From the NCBI GenBank assembly GCA_029582155.1, contig CM055899.1:86276056-86340055 (forward strand): a stretch of DNA of 64,000 bases, given 5' to 3'. The translations under genes were made by a program, and so were the position numbers. Positions 8,586-59,957 of the stretch are shown one piece after another. Under the pieces are notes generated by a model. That model was not told the origin of the DNA and did no database searches. It was given only the letters and a program-made list of their open reading frames with translations. Each line of letters starts with the position of its first letter. Within the stretch, counting starts at the first letter, position 1. This stretch comes from Panopea generosa (lineage: Eukaryota; Mollusca; Bivalvia; Adapedonta; Hiatellidae).

Positions 8586-9645
8586 TAGAAGTGTAAAAAC
8601 AGGTTTGAAGTAGAAATTTACAGATATTTTATTGTTTTATAACGAGACTAATTGTTTTTAAGTTGAGCATGAAATCTTGATTTAAGCATGGAACAAAGTG
8701 TTATAACTCTGACCTAGGTCTGCCAAACCTATATGCTGAGCACCATGTGAGAAAATGACTCCAGTCTTTGGCATGACCGTTCACCATAATCAAACCAGAT
8801 GGTCACTAAGTTAAATTAATTATAAACTTGAAGTCCTACTTTCACTTTAAATATTCACTTACTTCACAAAGTCCTTAAATTCTAATTCACTACCTTTAAA
8901 ATCACAAAGTTTTCACTAAAGATATATTCAAAAAGTTGTTTTATTTTAATTCTGAAATCACATAGTTACGAAGTTATGTTTATCACGAAGTTAAGTTATT
9001 AAATTATTTTTTGAATCACAAAGTTATAACACAAAGTTTTTCCTATTTTCTGCACAAACTTATCCTAAATTCCTATTCTATTAATGTTACTGTTCTTAAT
9101 GTCTATGTTCTATATATACCAACAAAGATATTGTTTGACTTTGAAGGTGTGAATATGGTATCAAAGACTTCCTTCCCATCAAGGTGTAAAACCATATGTC
9201 AAAGGGGAAGTGATAATTAATAGTGATTAAACAAATAATACAATTTCCTGCTTTGAACATATTGAGTTAATTGATATAAATAAGTTGGCATATTTGAAAT
9301 TTTAACAAAATATAAATTGTAGGTTTAACAAATAATGGTAATATATTTATTTTTTCTAATTAAAGATTAAATATTTACATCATGTACATAAAGACAATCA
9401 TTTTGATATAAAACATGGTTACAATATTTTATCAGTAGAGATAGAAATGTGTGAATGTCAAATTATCCAAATTTGCTTATTATACACACATAAATCCAAA
9501 CTGACCAACTGATATAAAACAGTAAAAAAGTAGTTCCAAACTGTTGCTAGCATTTTAATAACTAACCCAAAATTTTGTATCAGCATAACTGTGGCAACTT
9601 TAGGAATACGATTGTCATCTCTTTTAAAAATTGACATTCTAACAA
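8586..9645. other. No gene seen; scattered CACAAAGTT words
   Basis: Between 8840 and 9050 the words TCACAAAGTT and CACGAAGTTA recur irregularly, perhaps a heavily decayed short repeat. The rest is plain AT-rich sequence. The 69-78-codon frames match no family I recognise. Confidence 0.45.
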
Positions 9646-9647
9646 AC

Positions 9648-10980
9648 CTGAGGTTGTAGAAAAATAGCACAGACAATAATTTGGTCACAGACACAATAAA
9701 AGGGCCATAACTCTGTGAAAATCATCAAACCGGAACACAAAGACAATATGCACATCTCCACTTGGTAGTTATGCATCCTAGGAAGTTTCATAAAATTCCA
9801 ACATAAGGTTGTAGAGAAATAGCGTGGACAAAAATTTGGTCACAGACAAAATCAAAGGGCCATAACTCTGTGAAAAATCATGGAACCCAAACATAAATAC
9901 AATATACGCATCTGCAATTAGTAATGATGCATCCTAACAAGTTTCATAAAATTCCAACCTGAGGTTGTAGAGAAATAGTGTGGACAAGAATTTGGTCACA
10001 GACTCAATTAAAGGGCCAAAACTCTGTGAAAAAAATCATCAAACCAGAACACAAAGATCTAATGAGCATGTCCACTTGGTAGTGATGCATCCTAGCAAGT
10101 TTCATAAAATTCCAACATTGGGTTGTAGAGAAATAGCCCAGACAAGAGTTTGGTCACAGACAGAATCAAAGGGCCATAACTCCGTGAAAAACATTGAACT
10201 GGAACAAAAAGATATTTTGCACATCTCCACTTGGTAGTGATGCATCCTTGCAAGTTTCATAAAATTCCAACAAGAGGTTGTAGAGAAATAGCACGGACAA
10301 TAATTTGGTCAGACTCAATTAAAGGACCAAAACTCTGTGAAAAAAACATCGAACCAGAACACAAAGATATTATGTGCATCTCCAATTCGTAGTGATGCAT
10401 CTTAGCAAGTTTCATAAAATTCCAACATTGGGTTGTAGAGAAATAGCCCGTATAATAATTTGGTCACAGACAGAATCAAAGGGCCATAACTCTGTGAAAA
10501 AACATTGAACCGGAACAAAAAGATATTATGCACATCTCCACTTGGTAGTGATGCATCCTAGCAAGTTTCTTAAAATTCCAACCAGAGGTTGTAGAGAAAT
10601 AGCCCGGACAAGAATTTGGTCACATACTCAATTAAAGGGCCATAACTCCATGAAAAATCATCGAACAGGAACTCAAAGATATTATGCACATCTCCACTTG
10701 GTAGTGATACATCTTTATAAAATTCCAACATTGGGTTGTAGAGAAATAGCCCGGACAAAAATTTGGTCAGAGACAGAATCAAAGGGTCATATCTCAGTGA
10801 AAAAACATCTAAGTGGAACAAAAAGATACTATGCACATCTCCACTTGGTAGTGATGCATCCTAGCAAGTTTCATAAACTTCCAACGAGAGGTTGTAGAGA
10901 AATAGCCCTGACAAGAATTTGGTGACGCACACACAGATGAAGCGGCGACTATATGCTTCCCCCCTTTGGAGGAGCATAAA
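9648..10980 (+). repeat. ~155-bp satellite-like array, ~8.5 units, hairpin 3' end
   Basis: GGTTGTAGAGAAATAG recurs at about 9652, 9806, 9963, 10123, 10275, 10432, 10587, 10733 and 10890, a mean spacing near 155. Each unit also has AAAGGGCCATAACTCTGTGA, CATCTCCACTTGGTAGTGAT and AAGTTTCATAAAATTCCAAC. The array ends in unique sequence with an imperfect hairpin, TATGCTTCCCCCC and GGAGGAGCATA, followed by AAAATAAAA. I see no AACAAGA-type left end, so it may be 5'-truncated. Confidence 0.9.
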
Positions 10981-16106: not shown

Positions 16107-18528
16107 GCCATACCACTGTAACAGAGTACAAAACACATCTGTACCATACCACTATAACAGAGTACAAAACACAACTATACATACCACTGTATCAGAGTAC
16201 AAGACACAACTGTACCATATCACTGTACCATACCACTGTATCAGAGTACAAGACACAACTGTACCATACCACTATAACAGAGTACAAAACACATCTATAC
16301 CATACCACTGTAACAGAGTACAAGACACAACTGTACCATACCACTATAACAGACTACAAAACACATCTGTACCATACCACTGTAACAGAGTACAAAACGC
16401 AACTATACATACCACTGTATCAGAGTACAAGACACAACTGTACCATACCACTATAACAGACTACAAAACACAACTGTATCATACCACTGTAACAGAGTAC
16501 AAAACACAACTATACATACCACTGTATCAGAGTACAAGACAAAACTGTACCATACCACTGTAACAGAGTACAAAACACAACTGTACATACCACTGTATCA
16601 GAGTACAAGACACAACTGTACCATACCACTATACCAGTGTACAAAACACAACTGTACCATACCATTGTATCAGAGTACAAGACACAACTGTACCATACCA
16701 CTGTATCAGAGTACAAAACACAACTATACATACCACTGTATCAGAGTACAAGACAAAACTGTACCATACCACTGTAACAGAGTACAAACACAACTATACA
16801 TACCATTGTATCAGAGTACAAGACAAAACTGTACCATACCACTGTAACAGAGTACAAAACACAACTATACATACCACTATATCAGAGTACAAGACACAAC
16901 TGTACCATACCACTGTATCAGAGTACAAGACACAACTGTACCATACCACTGTATCAGAGTACAAGACACAACTATACCATACCACTGTATCAGAGTACAA
17001 AACACATCTATACCATACCACTGTATCAGAGTACAAAACACATCTATACCATACCACTGTAACAGAGTACAAAACACAACTGTACCATACCACTGTAACA
17101 AAGTAGAAAACACATCTGTACCATACCACTGTATCAGAGTACAAGACACAACTGTACCATACCACTGTAACAGAGTACAAGACACAACTGTACCATACCA
17201 CTGTATCAGAGTACAAAACACATCTATACCATACCACTGTAACAGAGTACAAAACACATCTGTATCATACCACTGTAACAAAGTAGAAAACACATCTGTA
17301 CCATACCACTGTATCAGAGTACAAGACAAAACTGTACCATACCACTATAACAGTGTACAAAACACAACTGTACCATACCACTGTATCAGAGAACAAAACA
17401 CATCTATACCATACCACTGTAACAGAGTACAAAACACATCTGTATCATACCACTGTAACAAAGTAGAAAACACATCTGTACCATACCACTGTATCAGAGT
17501 ACAAGACACAACTGTACCATACCACTATAACAGTGTACAAAACATTACTGTACCATACCACTGTAACAGAGTACATGACACAACTGTACCATACCACTGT
17601 AACAGACTACAAAACACAACTGTATCATACCACTGTAACAGAATACAAAACACATCTGTATCATACCACTGTAACAGAGTACAAAACACATCTGTACCAT
17701 ACCACTGTATCAGAGTACAAGACACAACTGTACCATACCACTATTACAGTGTACAAAACACAACTGTACCATACCACTGTAACAGAGTACACGACACAAC
17801 TGTACCATACCACTGTAACAGAGTACAAAACACATCTATACCATACCACTGTATCAGAGTACAAGACACAACTGTACCATACCACTATAACAGTGTACAA
17901 AACACAACTGTACCATACCACTGTATCAGAGTACAAGACACAACTGTACCAAACCACTGTATCAGAGTACAAAATACAACTGTACCATACCACTATAACA
18001 AAGTATAAAAAACAACTATACCATACCACTGTAACAGAGAGCAAAACACAACTGTACCATACCACTGTAACAGAGTACAAGACACAACTGTACCATACCA
18101 CTATAACAGTGTACAAAACACAACTGTACCATACCACTGTATCAGAGTACAAGACACAACTGTACCATACCACTGTATCAGAGTACAAAATACAACTGTA
18201 CCATATCACTATAACAGAGTATAAAAAACAACTATACCATACCACTGTAACAGAGAACAAAACACAACTGTACCATACCACTGTAACAGAGTACAAAACA
18301 CAACTGTACCATACCACTGTAACAGACTACAAAATACAACTATACCATATCACTGTAACAGAGTACAAAACACAGCTGTACCATACCAGTGTAACAGAGT
18401 ACAAAACACAACTGTACCATACCACTGTACCATACCACTAAATTAGAATACAAAACTCAACTGTACCATACCACTGTAACACAGTATAAAACACAACCAT
18501 ACCATTGTAACAGAGCACAAAACACAAG
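16107..18528. repeat. 36-bp minisatellite, about 67 copies, with higher-order repeats
   Basis: The unit is ACCATACCACTGTAACAGAG then TACAAAACACAACTGT. Because it is 12 codons, it is open on both strands: 302 codons on the plus strand at 17533-18441 (YHTTVTEYKTQL units) and 152, 150 and 218 codons on the minus strand. Blocks recur at 180 bases (5 units; CAAAGTAGAAAACACATCTG at about 17098, 17278, 17458) and about 216 bases (6 units; GTATAAAAAACAACTATACC near 18003 and 18219). Copies are very similar, so the array is young or homogenised. Confidence 0.96.
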
Positions 18529-19675: not shown

Positions 19676-20480
19676 AACAAGAGATGTGGAAATTTTAGCA
19701 TTTTTGACTAATTAAAGGGCCATAACTCTGAAGATAATGGTTAGAATTCGCTAGTTATCGAACTTGGCTCAGATTTTATAGAGATACACTCTTTGTGTAA
19801 GTTGGCTTCAGTTCAGATAAAGAATACTCTAGTTACTAAGCAGAAACGGTAAATTTTAGCATTTTTGACTAATTAAAGGGCCATAACTCTAAAGATAATA
19901 GTCTGAATTGGTTGGTTATTGAACTTGATCTAGATTTTATAGAGATTCACATTTTGTGTACGTTTGCTTCAGTTCTGATACAGAATACTCTAGTTATTAA
20001 GCTGAAACAGGCAATTTTAGCATTTTTGACTAATTAAAGGGCCATAACTCTAAAAATAATGGTCCGTATTGGCTGGTTATCTAACTTGGCCTAGAGTTTA
20101 CAGAGATGCACACTTTGTGAAAGTTTGCTTCAGTTCTGATAAAGAATAATCTGGTAACTGAGTGGAAACGGTAAATTTTAGCATTTTTAACTAATTAAAG
20201 GGCCATAACTCTTAAGATAATTGTGTGAATTGTACGCTGGTTATTGAATTTGGCCTAGATTTTATAGATATTCACATTTTGTGTAAGTTTACTTTAGTTC
20301 TTATAAAGAATACTCTAGTGATTGAGCGGAACGGAAAATTTTAGCATTTTTGACTAATTAAAGGGCCATAACTCTGAAAATAATGGTCCATATTGGTTGG
20401 TTTGGTTTAGTTCCAATGAAAAATTCTCTAGTTATTGAACAGAAACCAAAAACTTGACGCCATCCATCCGCATGCCGACT
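19676..20480 (+). repeat. ~161-bp satellite-like array, 5 units, AACAAGAGATGTG start
   Basis: It starts with TTAACAAGAGATGTGG. TAATTAAAGGGCCATAACTC recurs at about 19711, 19871, 20031, 20193 and 20355. Each unit also has ATTTTAGCATTTTTGACTAA, CCTAGATTTTATAGAGAT and GTTTGCTTCAGTTCTGATA. It ends in CCATCCATCCGCATGCCGAC without a clear terminal hairpin. The left end resembles those of the cassettes at 21.25, 34.70, 38.33 and 59.27 kb. Confidence 0.88.
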
Positions 20481-21249: not shown

Positions 21250-23397
21250 TGTAAACAAGAGTTGTCAGAGGACAACAAACTCGCAGATGGGATAAAACTC
21301 ACCATCCATGCAAAGACTGAGACTGAAGGCAAACACCAAAACTTAAATGCAACTAAATGGGGAAGATTAACCTGGGTGTCTACTGACAAAAAATTAAGTC
21401 CAAAAGGGCCATAACTTTGCCAAAATGCAACCCTGAGTTGCGGTTCTTGTCTCTGTGTGTTCCAGTGATGATGATGAGCACACATGTGAATTTTCATTCA
21501 TATCCAATGAGTGGTTGCATAGATATGTTACCTGATAATAAAACTTTAACCTGAAAAATTAAGTTGAAAAAGTTTCAAAAACTGTGCCAAAATGCAACCC
21601 AGAGTTATGGTTCTTGTCTGTGTGTCTTCCATTAATGATGGTGAACACACATGCGAAGTTTCATTCACATCCAATGAGTGGTTGCAAAAATATCTTAAAT
21701 GCAACTAAATGTAAAAGTTTAACCTGGGTGTCTAAGTCCAACAAGAGTTGTCAGAAGACAACAAAGCTTGTCGATGGTATAAAACTCACCACCAATGCAA
21801 AGATTGAGATTGGAGGCGAACACCAAAACTTAAACGCATCTAAACGCAAAAGTTTAACCTCGGTATGTACAGAAAAATTAAAGTCTTAAATGGCAATAAC
21901 TCTGCCAAAATGCAACCCTGAGTTATGGTTCTTGTCTCTGTGTGTTTCAATGATGATGGTGAACACACATGCAAAGTTTCATTTATATCCAATGAGTGGT
22001 TCCATAGATATCTTAAGTGATAAAAAGCTTTAACCTGAAAAATTAAGTAAAAAAAGGGCCATTACTGTGCCAAAATGCAACCCAGAGTTATGGTTTTTGT
22101 CTTTGTGTGTTTCAAAGATAATGGTGAACACACATGCAAAGTTTCATTCATATCCAATGGAGTGGTTGCATAGATATCTTAATTAATAAAAAACTTAAAC
22201 CTGAAAAATTAAGTCGAAAAGGGCCATAAACCTGCCAAAATGCAATCCAGAGTTATGGTTCTTATCTCTGTGTGTTCCACTGATGATGGTGAACGCACAT
22301 GTAAAGTTTCATTCACATCCAAAGAGTGGTTGCATAGATATCTTAAACTTAAACGCAACTAAACTCAAAGTTTAACCTGAGTGTCTAAGTCCAAAAAGGG
22401 CCATTACTGTGTCAAAAAGCAATCCAAAGGTATGATTCTTGTCTCTGTGTGTTCCATTGATGATGGTGAACACACATGTGAAGTTTCATTCACATCTAAT
22501 GAGTGGTTGCATAGATATCTTAAACTTAAACGCAACTAAACTCAAAGTTTAACCTTGGTGTCTAAGTCCAAAAAGGGCAATAACTGTGCCAAAATGCAAT
22601 ACAGAGTTATGGTTCTTGTCTCTGTGTGTTCCATTGATGTTGGTGAACACACATGCGAAGTTTCATTTTCATCGAATGACTGGTTGCATAGATATCTTAA
22701 ACTTAAACACAACTAAACGCAAAGTTTAGCCTTGGTGTCTAAGTCCAAAAAGGGCCATAACTGTGCAAATATGCAATCCAGAGTTATGGTTCTTGTCTCT
22801 TAGTGTTCCATTGATGATGGTGAACACACATGCCAAGTTACATCCACATCGAATGAGCAGCTGCATAGATATTTTAAACTTAAACGCAACTGAACGCAAA
22901 GTTTAACCTTGGTGTCTAAGTCCAAAAAGGGCCATAACTGTGCCAAAATGCAATCCAGAGATATGGTTCTTATCTCTGTGTGTTCCATTGATGATGGTAA
23001 ACACACATGCAAAGTTTCATTGACATCCAATGAGTGGTTGCATAGATAACTGAAACTTAAACTCAAAAGTTTAACCTGGGTCTCTACAGACGTCGCCGCC
23101 GCCGCCAACAACACCAGGGTCATGACAATAGTTCTCCTTGGACTTCGTCCTGGCGAGCTAAAAAGGGCCATTACTGTGCCAAAATGCAATCCAGAGTTTT
23201 GGTTCTTGTCTGTGTGTGTTCCACTGATGATGGTGAACACACATGTGAAGTTTCATTCAAATCCAATGAGCAGTTGCATAGATATCTTAAACTTAAAATG
23301 CAAAAGTTTAACCTGGGTGTCTACAGACGACGAAGCCGACAATGCCAGGGTCATGGCAATAGCTCTCCTTGAACTTCATCCCGGCGAGCTAAAAATG
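21250..23397 (+). repeat. Hairpin-bounded ~172-bp tandem cassette (cassette C), composite
   Basis: The left end AACAAGAGTTGTCAGAGGAC is followed by AACAAACTCGCAGATGGGAT. Internal units of about 165-180 bases carry AAGGGCCATAACTGTGCCAA, AATGCAATCCAGAGTTATGG, GATGATGGTGAACACACATG and AATGAGTGGTTGCATAGATA. A second left end occurs at about 21737 (GTTGTCAGAAGACAAC, a perfect hairpin). Right ends occur at 23165 and 23397, each a TAGCTC...GAGCTA-type hairpin then an A-run. So at least two cassettes are fused or nested. Frames of 90-146 codons here are by-products. Confidence 0.85.
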
Positions 23398-25229: not shown

Positions 25230-25415
25230 AAGGAGTGTGATAGTGGATAGAGTATTGGCTGCTCATGCCAGAGGTTGCGGGTTCGATCCCCAGCTCGACA
25301 TAATGCTGCTCAAATACTCAGTACTGGTTCCACTCTGGAAGTGGACTTGAGAACGGTTCATAAGCGTCTCTGCAATCAAACTAAAACAAATGTGTATATA
25401 ACCTTTAAAAAGAAG
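25230..25415 (+). mobile_element. SINE C, full length (C1)
   Basis: The tRNA-like head has the A box TAGTGGATAGAGTATTGG (about 25241) and a canonical B box GGTTCGATCCC (25280-25290). The body has CTCAGTACTGGTTCCACTCT, GGACTTGAGAACGGTTCATA, AGCGTCTCTGCAATCAAACT and an A-rich end. This plain copy is the reference for the expanded relatives at 28.2 and 41.7 kb. Confidence 0.85.
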
Positions 25416-28174: not shown

Positions 28175-28545
28175 AAAACAGAGTGGTAGTGCAGAGGACA
28201 GAAGGTTGGCCACTCACAATGTGGGTTCAATTCCTGGCTTGAACCGCTGGCCTCCCAAAAAACAACACTCAGTACAGGTTCTACCAAATAAAACAACACT
28301 CAGTACAGGTTCTACCAAAAAGAACAACACTCAGTACAGATTCTACCAAAAAAAAAGAGAACAACACTTAGTACAGGTTCTACCAAAAAAAACAACAACA
28401 ACACTCAGTACAGGTTCTACCAAAAAAACAATCAGTACAGGTTCTACTCAGTACAGGTTCACTACCCAAGAAATGGAGTTGAGAGCCATTCATATAAGCT
28501 CTGTCAGCTAATTTCACAATCAACCTAAAATAAATGAGTACAAAT
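28175..28545 (+). mobile_element. SINE C (C2) with internal tandem expansion
   Basis: The head is GAGTGGTAGTGCAGAGGACA (A-box-like) and GGGTTCAATTCCTGG (B box, about 28223). The family word CTCAGTACAGGTTCTACC, single in C1, then occurs about seven times (28255-28463) at 16-38-base spacing, separated by growing A/C-rich linkers. The usual 3' end follows: AAATGGAGTTGAGAGCC, ATTCATATAAGCTCTGTCAG, CACAATCAACCTAAAATAAA. A 139-codon frame crosses it but is SINE sequence. Confidence 0.85.
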
Positions 28546-41128: not shown

Positions 41129-41198
41129 ATTTTAAGCCTGAGTAACACATTTGCATTTATAACTTCCACTGATAACATCACCCTCTCCTATATGATAG

Positions 41199-41500
41199 CC
41201 AGGCCCATTTAGCTTAAGTGTTAGCATGTCTGACTATTAAGCTAGAGGTTTTGAGTTCGAATCCCTGCCTGCCAACAGTCTCCGCGATGACTGATATACA
41301 ACATTGAATCTTATTATTATTCGTCTCTTACAGCTGATTCAAGTGGGAAAATTATCAGTTAAATGTGGAGATGGGGTGTGCTAAACAACTGGTTAACCCA
41401 TCAGGATCCGAGGAACAACAATGAGGTTAACTGATCATCTGTTAGCAATTGATGAAGAAAAATGATGCAAAATATTCAATCAGTCAATCATTCAATCTAA
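41199..41500 (+). mobile_element. SINE A, full length (A7)
   Basis: This is the best-preserved head: GGCCCATTTAGCTTAAGTGT, TAGCATGTCTGACTATTAAG, then B box GAGTTCGAATCCC (41253). The body has CCGCGATGACTGATATACAA, GATTCAAGTGGGAAAATTAT, GTGGAGATGGGGTGTGC, TCAGGATCCGAGGAAC and CTGATCATCTGTTAGC. The tail is AATATTCAATCAGTCAATCA. Confidence 0.9.
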
Positions 41501-41659: not shown

Positions 41660-41715
41660 TACCTTCTCAAAAAACAAACACTCTGGAAACTGACTCAAGA
41701 GCCTTTCACATAAGC
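41660..41715 (+). mobile_element. SINE C 3' fragment (C3) feeding a tandem array
   Basis: CCTTCTCAAAAAACAAACAC, GGAAACTGACTCAAGAGCC and TTTCACATAAGCCCTGAGC align with C2 (CCTCCCAAAAAACAACAC, AAATGGAGTTGAGAGCC, ATTCATATAAGCTCTGTCAG). The tRNA-like head is missing. The last part is the first unit of the 28-bp array. Confidence 0.65.
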
Positions 41716-42900
41716 CCTGAGCTTTTAATGCAATCACATAAGCCTTGAGTTTTTATTGCAATCACATAAGCCTTGAGCTTTTATTGTGATCAGATAAGCC
41801 CTGAGCTTTTATTGCAATCACATAAGCCTTGAGTTTTTATTGCAATCACATACACCTTGAGCTTTTATTGCAATCAGATAAGCCCTGAGCTTTTATTGCA
41901 ATCACATTAGCCCTGAGCCTTTATTGCAATCAGATAAGCCCTGAACTTTAATTGCAATCACATAAGCCTTGAGCTTTTATTGCAATCAGATAAGCCCTGA
42001 GCTTTTACTGCAATCAGATAAGCCCTGAGCTTTTACTGCAATCAGATAAGCCCTGAGCTTTTATTGCAATCACATAAGCCTTGAGTTTTTATTGCAATCA
42101 CATAAGCCTTGAGCTTTTATTGCAATCAGATAAACTCTGAGCTTTTATTGCAATCACATTAGCCTTGAACTTTTATTGCAATCAGATAAGCCATGAGCTT
42201 TTATTGCAATCATATAAGCCCTGAGCTTTTATTGCAATCACATGAGCCTTGAGTTTTAATTGCAATCACATGAGCCCTGAGCTTTTATTGCAATCAGATA
42301 AACCCTGAGCTTTTATTGCAATCACGTAAGCCTTGAGCTTTTATTGCAATCACATAAGCCTTGAGCTTTTATTGCAATCAGATAAGCCCTGAGCTTTTAT
42401 TGCAATCAGATAAGCCCTGTGCTTTTATTGCAATCACATAAGCCTTGAGCTTTTATTGCAATCACATAAGCCTTGAGCTTTCATGGCAATCACATAAGCC
42501 CTTTACTTTTATTGCAATCACATGAGCTTTGAGCTTTTATTGCAATCACATAAGCCTTGAGCTTTCATCGAAATCACATGAGCCTTGAGCTTTTATTGCA
42601 ATAACGTAAGCCTTGAGCTTTCATCGCAATCACATAAGCTCTGAGCTTTCATCGCAATCACATAAGCCCTGAGCTTTCATCACAATCACATTAGCCCTGA
42701 GCTTTCATCACAATCACATAAGCCCTGAGCTTTCATGGCAATCACAGCAATCACATAAGCCCTGAGCTTTCATGGCAATCACGTAAGCCTTGAGCTTTCA
42801 TCGCAACCACATTAGCCCTGAGCTTTCATCGCAATAACATTAGCAATGAGCTTTCATCGCAATCACATAAGCCCTGAGTTTTCATGGCAATCATGACAAT
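41695..42900. repeat. 28-bp minisatellite, about 42 copies, from a SINE C tail
   Basis: The unit is CACATAAGCCCTGAGCTTTT followed by ATTGCAAT. It corresponds to the SINE C 3' end (CATATAAGCTCTGTCAGCTA, then ATTTCACAATCA in C2). Variants separate left (CTTTTATTGCAATC) and right (CTTTCATCGCAATC) domains. One unit near 42750 has an 8-base duplication (GCAATCACAGCAATCACA). Confidence 0.93.
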
Positions 42901-43307
42901 CAATGTGACTTTTGAATCCACATATTTTCATGAAAGTTTGTATGCTTCTCTTTTTAATTATTTGTATAATTCTATCCCATCTTAAAGAAAGTCATTCCAA
43001 CCCAAAGATGAAGAAGGATCTGCGCCTGGTCACATTCTGCATAATTAAGAGGACTGTACCGAAACCGGCACATAAACGTGTCAGAATTCTCCATCATCTT
43101 GGCAACATGGCTAATCATACTTGCTTGCTTATTATAATGTTTTGCTATTTTGATTGATTCTTTATCTCTCTTCCATTTTTTTTTACAATAAACATAAGTG
43201 GTAAGTGCATTTATCCAGCCATCAAAACCACATGCTAAATTGTTGTTGGATAGAGAGAGTGTACAAGGATTTTGGATAGTGGGAAATAGGTCATTCACCA
43301 GATTCAT
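42901..43307. other. Unrecognised overlapping frames, no supported gene
   Basis: A plus frame (42912-43157, 81 codons) and a minus frame (42972-43307, 111 codons) overlap. Neither shows a domain I know; the minus frame has dispersed Cys and Trp but no recognisable motif. At best weak evidence for a coding fragment. Confidence 0.15.
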
Positions 43308-44452: not shown

Positions 44453-45275
44453 ATCTGAAATAATCCAAAACGGAGATGGCTTTAAGATGAAACATACTTA
44501 ATTAGTTCACACTATAAGCACTTACAGTAAATTCCTCACCGATGTACTTTACTTAATCCCAGGAGAAGCTATTGCTAATCCAGGTGTCTGATTCAAGTTT
44601 CGGAAATATGTTTTTCAATATGTAAACTATTTCTTATACAGATTGACTTTTTGACACCTGCACTCTGAATTTACCATTCACTACCTGGGTTTTATGATTT
44701 AGGAGATGATAAAACTGACTTAACAAGGAAGATATAAAGCCATTCAGTTCTGAGGGCCTGCACATGGGCTTCGAGGAATCTATTTTTGACATTGTATGAA
44801 TGATAAATAATAGGCCCTGCACTTCAAGTTAGAGAACTTTTAGTGAACAATAATAACTGTTTGCTTTCACCTATTCTTACATACAATTGGCTGATTTTGG
44901 ATTAGCTGATATAATATTAATGTACATGCCATATTGACTGTAGTCATTGAAAACTGCTTCAAATGACTGATAGCTAAATTTTAAGCCTTTAATAAATGCT
45001 GACACCAAAATTTCATTAGTCTATCATTGCGAAACATGTGGTAAGGCAGTGTTTTCTCTTTCTTCCACATAAACCTGATGTACATTTCCCATCGTTTTGG
45101 TATTTTTAAACCTCAGGGTATTCGGGCACCAAATCCTGAGGTTTGGAAAGAAAAAATCATATGGACATGTACAGGGTGGAACAAATCTGCGACAATTGGT
45201 ACAAAAACCACAAAAATTCTTGTCAACTTTGATGTAGTCTCAAACAAAAATCTAATAACTTATTTTCTGACACAC
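44453..45275. other. No gene; small stem-loop at 45108-45144
   Basis: AAACCTCAGG and CCTGAGGTTT are perfect 10-base inverted arms with an 18-base loop. Otherwise AT-rich with no recognisable frame. Confidence 0.45.
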
Positions 45276-47640
45276 TTGGAGAATTTACGCTCAGGAAAAA
45301 TTATTCAACCCTTTGAAAATGTATGCTCCGAAAATATTATACAAGCCTTGGAGAATGTACTCTAGGAAAATATTATACAAGCCTTGGAGAATGTACTCTA
45401 GGAAAATATTATACAACCCTTGGAGAATGTACGCTTGGAAAATATTATACAAGCCTTGGAGAATGTACTCTAGGAAAATATTATACATCCCTTGGAGAAT
45501 GTATGCTCGGAAAATATTATACAACCCTTGGAGAATGTACTCTAGGAAATTATTATACAACCCTTGAAGAGAATGTACGCTTGGAAAATATTATACGACC
45601 CTTGGATAATGTACGCTTGGAAAATATTATACAAGCCTTGGAGAATGTACTCTAGGAAAATATTATACAAGCCTTGGAGAATGTACTCTAGGAAAATATT
45701 ATACAACCCTTGGAGAATGTACGCTTGGAAAATATTATACAAGCCTTGGAGAATGTACTCTAGGAAAATATTATACAAGCCTTGGAGAATGTACTCTAGG
45801 AAAATATTATACAACCCTTGGAGAATGTACGCTTGGAAAATATTATACAAGCCTTGGAGAATGTACTCTAGGAAAGTATTATACAAGCCTTGGAGAATGT
45901 ACTCTAGGAAAATATTATACAACCCTTGGAGAATGTACGCTTGGAAAATATTATACAAGTCTTGGAGAATTTACTCTGGGAAAATATTATACAAGCCTTA
46001 GAGAATGTACTCTAGGAAAGTATTATACGACCCTTGGAGAATGTACGCTTGGAAAATATTATACAAGCCTTGGAGAATGTACTATAGGAAAATATTATAC
46101 AACCCTTGGAGAATGTACGCTTGAAAAATATTATACAACCCTTGGAGAATGTACTCTAGGAAAATATTATACAACCCTTGGAGAATGTACGCTTGGAAAA
46201 TATTATACGACCCTTGGAGAATGTACGCTCGGAAAATATTATACAAGCCTTGGAGAATGTACTCTAGGAAAATAATATACATCCCTTGGAGAATGTACGC
46301 TCGGAAAATAATATACAACCCTTGGAGAATGTACTCTAGGAAAAAATTATACAACCCTTGGAGAATGTACGCTTGGAAAATATTATACAACCCTTGAAGA
46401 ATGTACGCTTGGAAAATATTATATGACCCTTGGAGAATGTATGCTTGGAAAATATTATACAAGCCTTGGAGAATGTACTCTAGGAAAATATTATACAACC
46501 CTTGGAGAATGTACGCTCGGAAAATATTATACAACCCTTGGGGAATGTACACTTGTAAAATATTATATGACCCTTGGAGAATGTACACTTGAAAAATAAC
46601 AACCCTTGGAGAATGTACGCTCGGAAAATATTATACAAGCCTTGGAGAATGTACTCTAGGAAAATAATATACATCCCTTGGAGAATGTACGCTCGGAAAA
46701 TATTATACAACCCTTGGAGAATGTACTCTAGGAAAATATTATACAACCCTTGGAGAATGTACGCTCGGAAAATATTATACAACCCTTGGGGAATGTACAC
46801 TTGTAAAATATTATATGACCCTTGGAGAATGTACACTTGAAAAATAACAACCCTTGGAGAATGTACGCTTGGAAAATATTATACAACCCTTGGAGAATGT
46901 ACGCTCGGAAAATATTATACAACCCTTGGAGAATGTACTCTAGGAAAAAATTATACAACCCTTGGAGAATGTACGCTTGGAAAATATTATACAACCCTTG
47001 AAGAATGTACGCTTGGAAAATATTATACGACCCTTGGAGAATGTATGCTTGGAAAATATTATACAAGCCTTGGAGAATGTACTCTAGGAAAATATTATAC
47101 AACCCTTGGAGAATGTACGCTCGGAAAATATTATACAACCCTTGGGGAATGTACACTTGTAAAATATTATATGACCCTTGGAGAATGTACACTTGAAAAA
47201 TAACAACCCTTGGAGAATGTACACTTGGAAAATATTATACAACCCTTGGAGAATATACACTTCTAAAATATAATACAACCCTTGGAGAATGTTCACTTGG
47301 AAAATATTATACAACCTTTGGAGAATGTACGTCAGAAAATATTATACAACCCTTGGGGAATGTACACTTGTAAAATATTATATGACCCTTGGAGAATGTA
47401 CACTTGAAAAATAACAACCCTTGGAGAATGTATGCTTGGAAAATATTATACAACCCTTGGAGAATGTACACTTGAAAAATAACAACCCTTGGAGAATGTT
47501 CACTTGGAAAATATTATACAACCTTTGGAGAATGTACGTCAGAAAATATTATACAACCCTTGGAAAATGTACGTCAGAATATATTATACAACCATTGGAG
47601 AATGTACGTCAGAATATATTATACAACCCTTGGAAAATTT
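45276..47640. repeat. 37-bp minisatellite, about 64 copies, with block duplications
   Basis: The unit is CTTGGAGAATGTACGCTCGG followed by AAAATATTATACAACC. Variants CTCTAGG, GCTTGG and GCTCGG mark units. A rare block (GGGAATGTACACTTGTAAAA, then a shortened GAAAAATAACAACCC unit) recurs at about 46541, 46791, 47143 and 47357, showing segmental duplication of 214-352 bases. A 37-base unit walks through three frames, giving open frames up to 168 codons on both strands; these are by-products. Confidence 0.95.
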
Positions 47641-48037
47641 ACCCTCGGGAACAGTTCTACCCTTTGATGTTTGAAGACATGAACTATCAAAACAAAAATG
47701 TCTAAAGAGTGCAAAAAAGCTGTTGCTTTTTCTTTGTTACTACTGACTTTTGAAGAGGTTCTGCAAACACTGGAATACTTGGATGTATAGCGTCCTAAAG
47801 AAAAGAACATCTACATCAATTTACATCATTTCTGTATCCTATTTAATACGATGATAATTTATACCATAGACTAATGGTATGAGAAAGCATGATATTTTTT
47901 CATTCATGACCCTCATTTTGTAATAATTCACTACAACTGCAGGTGTGTGATCAAACAATTTCTTTTATTGTGTGTTAAAGTACAGGAAAGCGGTTTTAAG
48001 CCACTGAGATGTGCAGTCAACAAATTAATGTTCAATG
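47641..48037. other. No recognised feature
   Basis: AT-rich sequence with no array, no long frame and no terminal repeat of its own. Confidence 0.5.
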
Positions 48038-54685: not shown

Positions 54686-56758
54686 GTAATGAAGCAACAA
54701 AGGAACTTAAAATAGGTAGCTAATGAATATGTAACGAAGGATCTTTAAATAGGTAGCTTATGAATATGTAGTACAGGAACTTTTTATAAGTAGGTAATGA
54801 ATATGTAACAAAGAAACTTTTAATAGGTAACTTATGAATATGCAACAAAGGATGTTTATATAGGTAGCTTATGAATATGTAGAAAAAGGAACTTTAAATA
54901 GGTAGGTAATGAATATGTAACAAATAAACTTTTAATAGATAGCTAATGAATATGTATCAACGGAACTTAATACTGGTAATCTTGAATATGTAACAATGGA
55001 ATTTGAATCTGGTTATTATGAATATGTTGCAACAGAATTTGAAACTGGTAACTTATGAATATGTAACAAGGGAACTTTAAACTTGTAACTAATGAATATG
55101 TAGCAACATAACTTTAAGCTGGTTATTATGATAATGTAACAACAGAACTTTAAACTGGTAATTACCAATATGTAACAACAGAACTTTAAACTGGTTATTA
55201 TGAATATGTAACAAGGGAACTTTAAACAGGTAACTTATGAACATGTAACAACAGAATATGAAACTGGTAATTATGAATATGTAACAACAGAACTTTAAAC
55301 TGGTTATTATGAATATGTAACAATGGAACTTTAAAGTGGTAACTTATGATTATGAATATGTAACAAAGGAACTTTAAAGTGGTAAATTATGAATATGTAA
55401 CAACAAAATATGAAACTGGTAATTATAAATATGTAACAACGAAACTTTAAACTGGTCATTATGAATATGTAACAACTGAACTTTAAACTGGTAATTATAA
55501 AAATGTAACAACAGAACTTAAACCGGTAATTATGAATATGAAACAACGGAACTTTAAACTGGATATCATGAATATGTAACAACGGAACTTTAAACTGGTT
55601 ATCATGAATATGTAACAACAGAACTTTAAACCAGTAATTATGAATATGTAACAACTGAACTTTAAACTGGTTATCATGAATATGTAACAACGGAACTTTA
55701 AACTGGTTATTATAAATATGCAACAATGGAACTTTAAACTGGTCATTAAGAATATGTTGCAACAGAATTTGAAACTGGTAACTTATGAATATGTAACAAC
55801 AGAATATGAAACTAGTTATAATGAATATGTAACCATGGAACTTTAAACTGGTAAAATGAATATGTAACAACTGGTAAAAATGAATATGTAATAACGGAAC
55901 TCTAAACTGGTTATTATAAATATGGTACAATGTAACTTTAAACTGGTCATTATGAATATGTAACAACGGAATATGAAACTGGTTATTATGAATATGTAAC
56001 AACGGAACTTTAAACTTGTAACTTATTGTAACAACTGAACTTTAAACTGGTAATTATGAATATGTAACAAGGGAACTTTAAACTGGTAATTATGAATATG
56101 TAACAACGGAACTTTAAACTTATAACTTATTGTAAAGACAGAACTTTAAACTGGCAATTATTAATATGTAACAAGGGAACTTTAAACTGGCAATTATGAA
56201 TATGTAACAAGGGAACTTTAAACTGGCAATTATGAATATGTAACAATGGAACTTTAAACTGGCAATTACGAATATGTAACAAGGGAACTTTAAACTGGTA
56301 ATTACAAATATGTAACAACAGAACTTTAAACTGGTTATTATGAATATGTAACAAGGGAACTTTAAACTGGCAATTATGAATATGTAACAATGGAACTTTA
56401 AACTGGCAATAACGAATATGAAACAACAGAACTTTAAACTGGTAATTACAAATATGTAACAACAGAACTTTAAACTGGTTATTATGAATATGTAACAATG
56501 GAACTTTAAACTGGCAATTATGAATATGTAACAATGGAACTTTAAACTGGCAATTATGAATATGTAACAATGGAACTTTAAACTGGCAATTACTAATATG
56601 AAACAACAGAACTTTAAACTGGTAATTACAAATATGTAACAACAGAACTTTAAACTGGTTATTATGAATATGTAACAAGGGAACTTTAAACTGGTAATTA
56701 TGAATATGTAACAACAGAACTTCAAATAGATAGCAAATTATGAATATGTTAGGAGATT
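54686..56758. repeat. 36-bp minisatellite, about 57 copies
   Basis: The unit is GGAACTTTAAACTGGTAATT followed by ATGAATATGTAACAAC. The left part (to about 54960) is a different domain, with ATAGGTAGCTTATGAATATG units. At 56140-56710 the units CTGGCAATTATGAATATG alternate in a 5-8-unit higher-order pattern. Minus frames of 223, 201 and 195 codons (LHIHNNQFKVPL units) follow from the 12-codon unit length. Confidence 0.95.
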
Positions 56759-59264: not shown

Positions 59265-59957
59265 AAACAAGAAATGTCAGAAGACAACAAAGCTCGCAGA
59301 TGGGATAAAACTCGACACCCATGCAAAGATTGAGATTGCAGGCAAATACCAAAACTTTAATGCAACTAAATGTGAAAGTTTAACGAGGGTGTCTACAGAC
59401 GAAAAATTAAGTCCAAAAGGGCCATAACTGTGTCAAAATGCAACCCAGAGTTATGTTTTTATGTCTCTGTGTGTTCCAATGATGATGGTGAACACATGTG
59501 CAAAGTTTCATTCATATTCAATGAGTGGTTGCATGGATATCTTACCTGATAAAAAAACTTTAACCTGAAAAATTATGTCGAAAAAGGGCCATTACTGTGC
59601 CAAATTGCAACCAGAGTTATGGTTTTATGTCTCTGTGTGTTCCACTGATGATGGTGAACACACATGCAAAGTTTCATTCATATCCAATGAGTGGTTGCAT
59701 AGATATCTTACCTGATAAAAAACTTTAAACTGAGAAATTAAGTCCAAAAAAGGCCATAACTGTGCCAAAATGCAATCCAGAGTTATGGTTCTTGCCTGTG
59801 TGTGTTCCATTGATGATGGTGAACACACATGCAAAGTTCCATTTACATCCAATGAGTGGTTGCATAGATATCTCAAACTTAAACGCAAAAGTTTAACCTG
59901 GGTGTATACAGACAATACCAGGGTTATGGCAATAGCTCTCCGGTGAGCTAAAAAGGA
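59265..59957 (+). repeat. Complete hairpin-bounded cassette with 3 tandem units (cassette F)
   Basis: The left end AACAAGAAATGTCAGAAGAC is followed by AACAAAGCTCGCAGATGGGA. Three units of about 165 bases carry AAGGGCCATAACTGTGTCAA, GATGATGGTGAACACA and GAGTGGTTGCATAGATATCT. The right end is the 18-base near-palindrome TAGCTCTCCGGTGAGCTA, then AAAAAGG. It is the same family as cassette C at 21.25 kb but shorter and simple, so it best shows the layout: left end, tandem units, right hairpin, A-run. Confidence 0.85.

Follow-up and report, generated by a model that had tools for sequence, protein, structure and literature searches.

A 42-unit minisatellite descended from an internal segment of the tRNA-type element SINE C, and uneven tandem duplication along the same SINE family

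The array of 28-bp units at 41706-42893 of the window (the whole stretch of 64,000 nucleotides analysed here, C6 86,276,056-86,340,055) descends from SINE C, an element of about 192 bp that has a tRNA-like head and is dispersed through the genome. The left edge of the array is anchored in SINE C sequence, the unit has an exact place in the SINE C consensus, and the array is very probably a minisatellite founded by a single insertion of this element. It lies about 0.7 Mb from the end of C6 (87,023,737 bases) in a genome of 1.47 Gb and 39 contigs, and no function is indicated for the array itself. The features on which this reading draws are as follows:

41665..41736, + strand: remnant of the founder SINE C, consensus ~80-167 minus 15 bp, entering the first array unit (alignment)
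41706..42893, + strand: minisatellite with a 28-bp period and 42 units, consensus TCACATAAGCCCTGAGCTTTTATTGCAA (TRF and unit cutting)
42462..42893, + strand: 3' portion of the array, units 28-42, holding every TTTCAT unit
42894..42990, + strand: right flank without a detectable SINE C 3' tail (alignment score against shuffles)

TRF analysis of the window returned 41706-42893 as a tandem array of period 28 with 42.1 copies and 86% matches, and cutting the array gave 42 units, all of 28 bp except one of 37 bp, in agreement with the preliminary description of a 1.2-kb array of about 42 copies. With 42 units of 28 bp, the array falls within the range of minisatellites (units of about 10-100 bp, up to about 100 units). 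Each of the 41 units of 28 bp agrees with SINE C at 22-27 of 28 positions, taking the better of two consensus variants. The SINE state TTTCAT is retained in 12 units, all of them within units 28-42, and in none of units 1-27, which carry derived states instead (TTTTAT or similar). No clear higher-order repeat was found in the array, similarity between units being nearly flat (0.864-0.892) over lags 1-12, with lag 3 at the top.

When 41660-42200 was searched against the genome, it matched its own array, a second array (L005) and 21 dispersed sites covering the first array unit and the piece before it. Twenty of these 21 matches were fetched with their flanks (the match at C3:75.6 Mb was omitted) and are copies of one element, SINE C; together with the 30 best full-length copies, they yielded a 192-bp consensus from 50 copies in total; since both sets were chosen by similarity, they form a non-random sample. 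Most of the fetched copies have the head and a fixed end, ATTAGTATAAACTAA, and a full-length search gave 2879 first-look candidates, of which the 40 scored span at least 188 of the 192 bp at 94-97%. SINE C therefore occurs as dispersed full-length copies with constant ends, as is expected of a tRNA-type SINE. Within the consensus, GTAGTCTAATGG and GGTTCGATCC, recognised by eye, are what we take to be candidate A and B boxes, and apparent target-site duplications were seen at two loci (L089 and L101), likewise by eye.

The array unit corresponds to consensus positions 136-166 of 192, and about 26 bp of SINE, ending in ATTAGTATAAACTAA, lie beyond it. The preliminary description had called for the unit to be sought in a consensus of SINE C; the whole 28-bp unit is present in the 50-copy consensus, which identifies SINE C as the founder, and the search begun from the start of the array found as its relatives dispersed SINE C copies. 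The same description had placed the unit at the 3' end of SINE C: the origin from SINE C stands, while the position is corrected, the unit being internal and about 26 bp short of the end. Its division of the unit into parts of 20 and 8 bp is unnecessary, as all 28 unit positions are contiguous in the consensus. Shared sequence taken alone would also fit the reverse direction, in which an ancestral SINE captured the unit of a pre-existing minisatellite. We regard this as very improbable, because most SINE C copies have the segment only once (5551 words as opposed to 21 tandem pairs at 3 loci) and because SINE C sequence flanks the array on its left.

That left flank was claimed as SINE C from the outset, and the claim holds: 41665-41736 aligns to the SINE C consensus with a score of 77, compared with a maximum of 32 among 300 shuffles, none of which (0/300) reached 77. 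Both the motif quoted as preceding the array, ACTCAAGAGCC, and the end of the SINE near 28.5 kb were found as described. An unrelated array could in principle resemble a SINE by chance, the unit being short and A+T-rich; however, the shuffles, the absence of any match to the reversed consensus and the extension of the match through the flank all speak against it, and with the shuffle and reversed-consensus controls we reject chance similarity as having next to no probability. Like SINE-derived satellites, the window array is thus built of a contiguous SINE portion, with the SINE continuing past it on at least one side (left, 41665-41705). An extended terminal unit reaching a SINE terminus was not found: the SINE C head (~1-79) was undetectable by alignment upstream of the array, and the 3' tail went undetected in 42894-42990, where the score of 18 was equalled by 71 of 300 shuffles. 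The founder copy is consequently incomplete, and its target-site duplication is unreadable.

Three further copies of SINE C were recognised in the window:

28185..28544, + strand: SINE C copy with head and tail, its middle segment expanded (TRF, alignment)
25241..25398, + strand: SINE C copy without tandem expansion, consensus 13-186, 79% identity
39691..39787, + strand: weak, truncated SINE C match, consensus 95-191, 71% identity

The copy at 28.2 kb, the reference for the preliminary description, is itself expanded in the middle, which yields more tandem pairs than either of the other two segments tested; its tandem part, 28257-28447, holds 5.9 copies of 31 bp (TRF). Just upstream of the array, 41195-41500 is an abundant tRNA-type SINE from a different family (8903 first-look candidates), whose core, AGTACTGGTTAACC, is by eye similar to that of SINE C, AGTACTGGTTCTACC. 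Tandem arrays with periods of 15-200 occupy 36.6% of the window (1-64000), the corresponding figures for two sets of fetched loci being 8.3% and 11.0%. By TRF, a 36-bp period is common to three arrays with differing units (16222-18429, 45275-47642 and 54696-56726); the distant arrays at 21888-23059 and 59401-59873 share nearly one long unit (about 166-177 bp, AAAGGGCCATAACTGTGCC...), and those at 9645-10923 and 19690-20402 have a similar AAAGGGCCATAACTC motif. As a source of most minisatellites SINE C was rejected: only 2 of 34 non-overlapping arrays in the window match it, and among non-overlapping arrays at other loci the matches were 1 of 32 clear, with one more by 17 bp only (L030-L058), and 3 of 34, one clear (L062) and two short (L059-L088).

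Tandem copies of the array's own segment were sought through its word TAAGCYYTGAGCTTT, which occurs twice within 5-30 bases in the 21 instances noted above (reversed control 0), 11 of them in the window array, 9 at C12:58.82 Mb and 1 at C13:31.93 Mb; given the 5551 single words, dispersed single copies are the usual form of the segment. At the C13 locus (L089), the segment is doubled with a period of 30 in a complete SINE C with head and tail; at the C12 locus (L090), about 20 units of period 37 were counted by eye, with the SINE tail behind them by BLAST and the head by eye; and at L005, on C18, five copies of period 33 stand in a SINE with head and tail present. Because L005 escapes the exact TAAGCYYTGAGCTTT pattern, the tandem counts are lower bounds. 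Paralogous SINE C copies of the same genome therefore carry 1, 2, 5 or about 20 units of the array segment, and the four different periods at the four loci (28, 30, 33 and 37 bp) indicate that at least the breakpoints differ. The 28-bp unit itself was tandem at no other locus among 50 matches from the best 40 of 222 candidates.

Nineteen array loci besides that of the window (L005, L011 and L089-L105) were read for their SINE context. BLAST detected the SINE head at 10 and the tail at 11 of these, either end at 15, both at 6 and neither at 4 (L093, L098, L099 and L104). Of the last group, L093 and L098 extend past the fetched piece, SINE positions 48-167 are present at L104, and the setting of L099 differs, with another SINE adjoining it. 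L101 has exactly two units within a SINE with both ends, of which BLAST scored one, the second being plain in the sequence. Separately, the SINE C copy at 463-763 of L053 is duplicated internally with a period of 127 bp (2.3 copies), far above the spacings at the listed loci of the middle segment.

The three segments of SINE C differ widely in how often they are found in tandem. The middle word, CACTCAGTACTGGTT, forms 1478 tandem pairs within 5-35 bases (793 + 685; reversed control 0) out of 9690 words (reversed control 15), whereas the head word, GAGTGTTGGCCGCTC, forms 47 pairs from 2322 words (8 places, grouped by eye) and the 3' word, that of the array segment, 21 pairs from 5551 words, the latter with an allowed gap of 5-30 bases, slightly narrower than that for the middle. 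The other abundant SINE, that of the family at 41195-41500, gave 6 tandem pairs, all at one place on C15, from 6605 words. Retention of the words is broadly alike (SINE C middle 30 of 50, head 27 of 50, 3' 40 of 50; other SINE 13 of 29), where the SINE C 3' word has two free positions and the consensus of the other SINE was built from 18 loci matching on one strand. The matches listed, the first 100 of the 1478 for the middle segment, represent 28 loci that lie on C1 and on the part of C2 up to 93.67 Mb; extrapolation to the whole genome gives about 212 loci, a rough figure given that the stretch read has 6.8% of the matches and 13% of the sequence. Expressed as arrays per word, the middle founds about 2.2% (extrapolated) and the array segment 0.05%. 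The segment from which the window array grew is thus a rare founder of arrays.

These counts suggest, tentatively and at slightly short of an even chance, that the middle of SINE C harbours an intrinsic minisatellite-founding site around AACACTCAGTACTGGTTCTACCCAGGAA, some property of this 30-bp motif causing it to duplicate far more often than the rest of the element or the other SINE. A hairpin was rejected as the cause: single-strand DNA folding gave z values of -0.51 for the middle, -0.40 for the array segment and -3.95 for the head, and as the segment with the most tandem pairs folds poorly, a simple hairpin offers no explanation of the hotspot. A somewhat doubtful alternative is that a few SINE C sources, already duplicated, were spread by retrotransposition or segmental duplication, so that most loci are not independent births. 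Spacings at the 28 listed middle loci are in keeping with this, 10 loci having only a 29-30-bp and 10 only a 33-35-bp spacing, as are units held in common by two head loci on C2, by two head loci on C13 and by C2:77.99 Mb and C2:79.60 Mb; given the units shared on C2 and C13, the array loci are not all independent. Against a spread from few sources, spacings of 23, 32, 36, 42-45 and 48 bp also occur among the listed middle loci, the founder segments differ (head, middle and 3'), the 28-bp unit was tandem nowhere else among the 50 matches described above, and the 30-bp class varies from 2 to 16 units per locus. If the intrinsic site in the middle is real, one SINE family would seed hundreds of separate minisatellites, and the window array would be an off-hotspot case of the same process.

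Among the head-derived arrays, one unit is found at both C2:93.12 Mb (+) and C2:100.08 Mb (-), and another at both C13:43.47 and 44.37 Mb; one unit at two places on a chromosome implies that finished arrays can themselves be duplicated or moved. With regard to chromosomal position, 12 of the 28 listed middle loci are no more than 10 Mb from a contig end, compared with 4.8 (17%) expected (p 0.0013, with the cut-off chosen afterwards), a comparison for which single SINE C copies were listed for part of C1 only.

We infer the following course for the window array. In an old SINE C copy, a 28-bp stretch (consensus 136-166) bounded by TCA...TCA would have undergone a single duplication, with replication slippage or unequal exchange as the probable mechanism and the TCA microhomology taking part. 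The longer homology thus created may then have permitted further slippage, unequal crossing-over or gene conversion and local growth to 42 units, during which the 5' two thirds would have been homogenised to the derived variant TTTTATTG and the 3' end would have kept older, SINE-like units. Comparable expansions of the array segment and of other SINE C segments exist at other loci. Read by hand, the repeat at the junction is TCA (only 3 bp) for the 28-bp unit; for the 30-bp middle unit it is AAACA. A script applied to 17 junctions gave 5 overlaps (1, 1, 5, 2 and 2 bp) and 12 gaps, many of the latter due to a rearranged unit or to a founder copy differing from the profile; for the window junction it returned a 1-bp gap, since at one position the founder has a C that few of the 50 copies share. 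Simulation against random breakpoints gave p 0.0007 for microhomology, weak and subject to post hoc selection, on seven kept values, namely the 5 overlaps and 2 junctions re-read by hand (3 bp in the window, 1 bp at L005), with 10 dropped.

The tandem duplication might instead have been born at reverse transcription, through template jumping or slippage of the partner LINE's enzyme, and not later in DNA, which we consider unlikely. The two-unit copies at L089 and L101, SINEs with head, tail and by-eye target-site duplications, are what such an origin would produce, and PMC3389668, in the excerpt drawn on here, argues that younger transposable elements are richer in tandem duplications, perhaps pointing to retrotransposition. 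Nevertheless, long arrays with diverged units (the window array and L090) need later growth anyway, and no insertion-time stage is visible for the window array. The scheme of duplication in an old SINE C copy, followed by growth in place, accordingly remains the reading we prefer.

SINE-derived satellites and duplication hotspots within transposable elements have already been published for squamates and humans (PMC10702118 and PMC3389668, cited, like the other sources below, from excerpts). Tandem repeats formed from portions of three SINE families are described for 56 squamate genomes in PMC10702118. As here, the squamate arrays repeat one contiguous part of a tRNA-type SINE and have SINE sequence at an edge, the portions differ between loci, and there are both short and long loci. 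The SINE family and the genome differ, however, the snake unit is 67 bp as against spacings of about 23-48 bp here, and the long terminal unit of the squamate arrays usually reaches the SINE terminus, which the window array does on neither side; both SINE ends were found at 6 of the 19 other array loci, and minor variants without extended terminal units are named in PMC10702118. The subtelomeric preference of the squamate satellites is only suggested here.

In humans, 23% of the minisatellites passing the filters of PMC3389668 derive from transposable elements, with duplication hotspots in AluS at 59-137 and 176-206, and Alu and B1 minisatellites are reviewed, with a short-repeat slippage model, in PMC6947457 (through which we cite Jurka and Gentles, 2006, and the mouse B1 VNTRs of Bois, 1998). 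The human Alu minisatellites resemble the present case in that internal SINE segments are duplicated and extended in place, with hotspots (PMC3389668). They differ in their mean of about 2.3-2.4 units per array, compared with arrays of about 20 and 42 units here, and the contrast between hotspot and other segment is large here (2.2%, extrapolated, as against 0.05% of words). MITE-linked satellites of bivalves (BIV160, PMC6947457; also PMC5139131) likewise tie a mobile element to tandem repeats, in what may be the same animal group, although the element class differs, being a tRNA-type SINE here. A literature word search of titles and abstract openings returned no report of SINE-derived minisatellites in molluscs, which leaves their absence unproven, and an 18-base word of SINE C sought in papers was not found. 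Helitron-linked satellites are also part of the bivalve background.

The points particular to the present case are the series of stages within one SINE family and the strong bias toward one segment. Minisatellite births are rarely caught, and here one SINE family shows founders of 1, 2, 5, 20 and 40 units in one genome; as the ancestral sequence is known, the breakpoints of first duplications can be read and compared. The bias toward one segment leads to a testable question, namely what predisposes a sequence to its first tandem duplication. Whether SINE-derived satellites are restricted to squamates is treated as uncertain in PMC10702118, and SINE-derived arrays in what is probably a non-reptile genome bear on that question.
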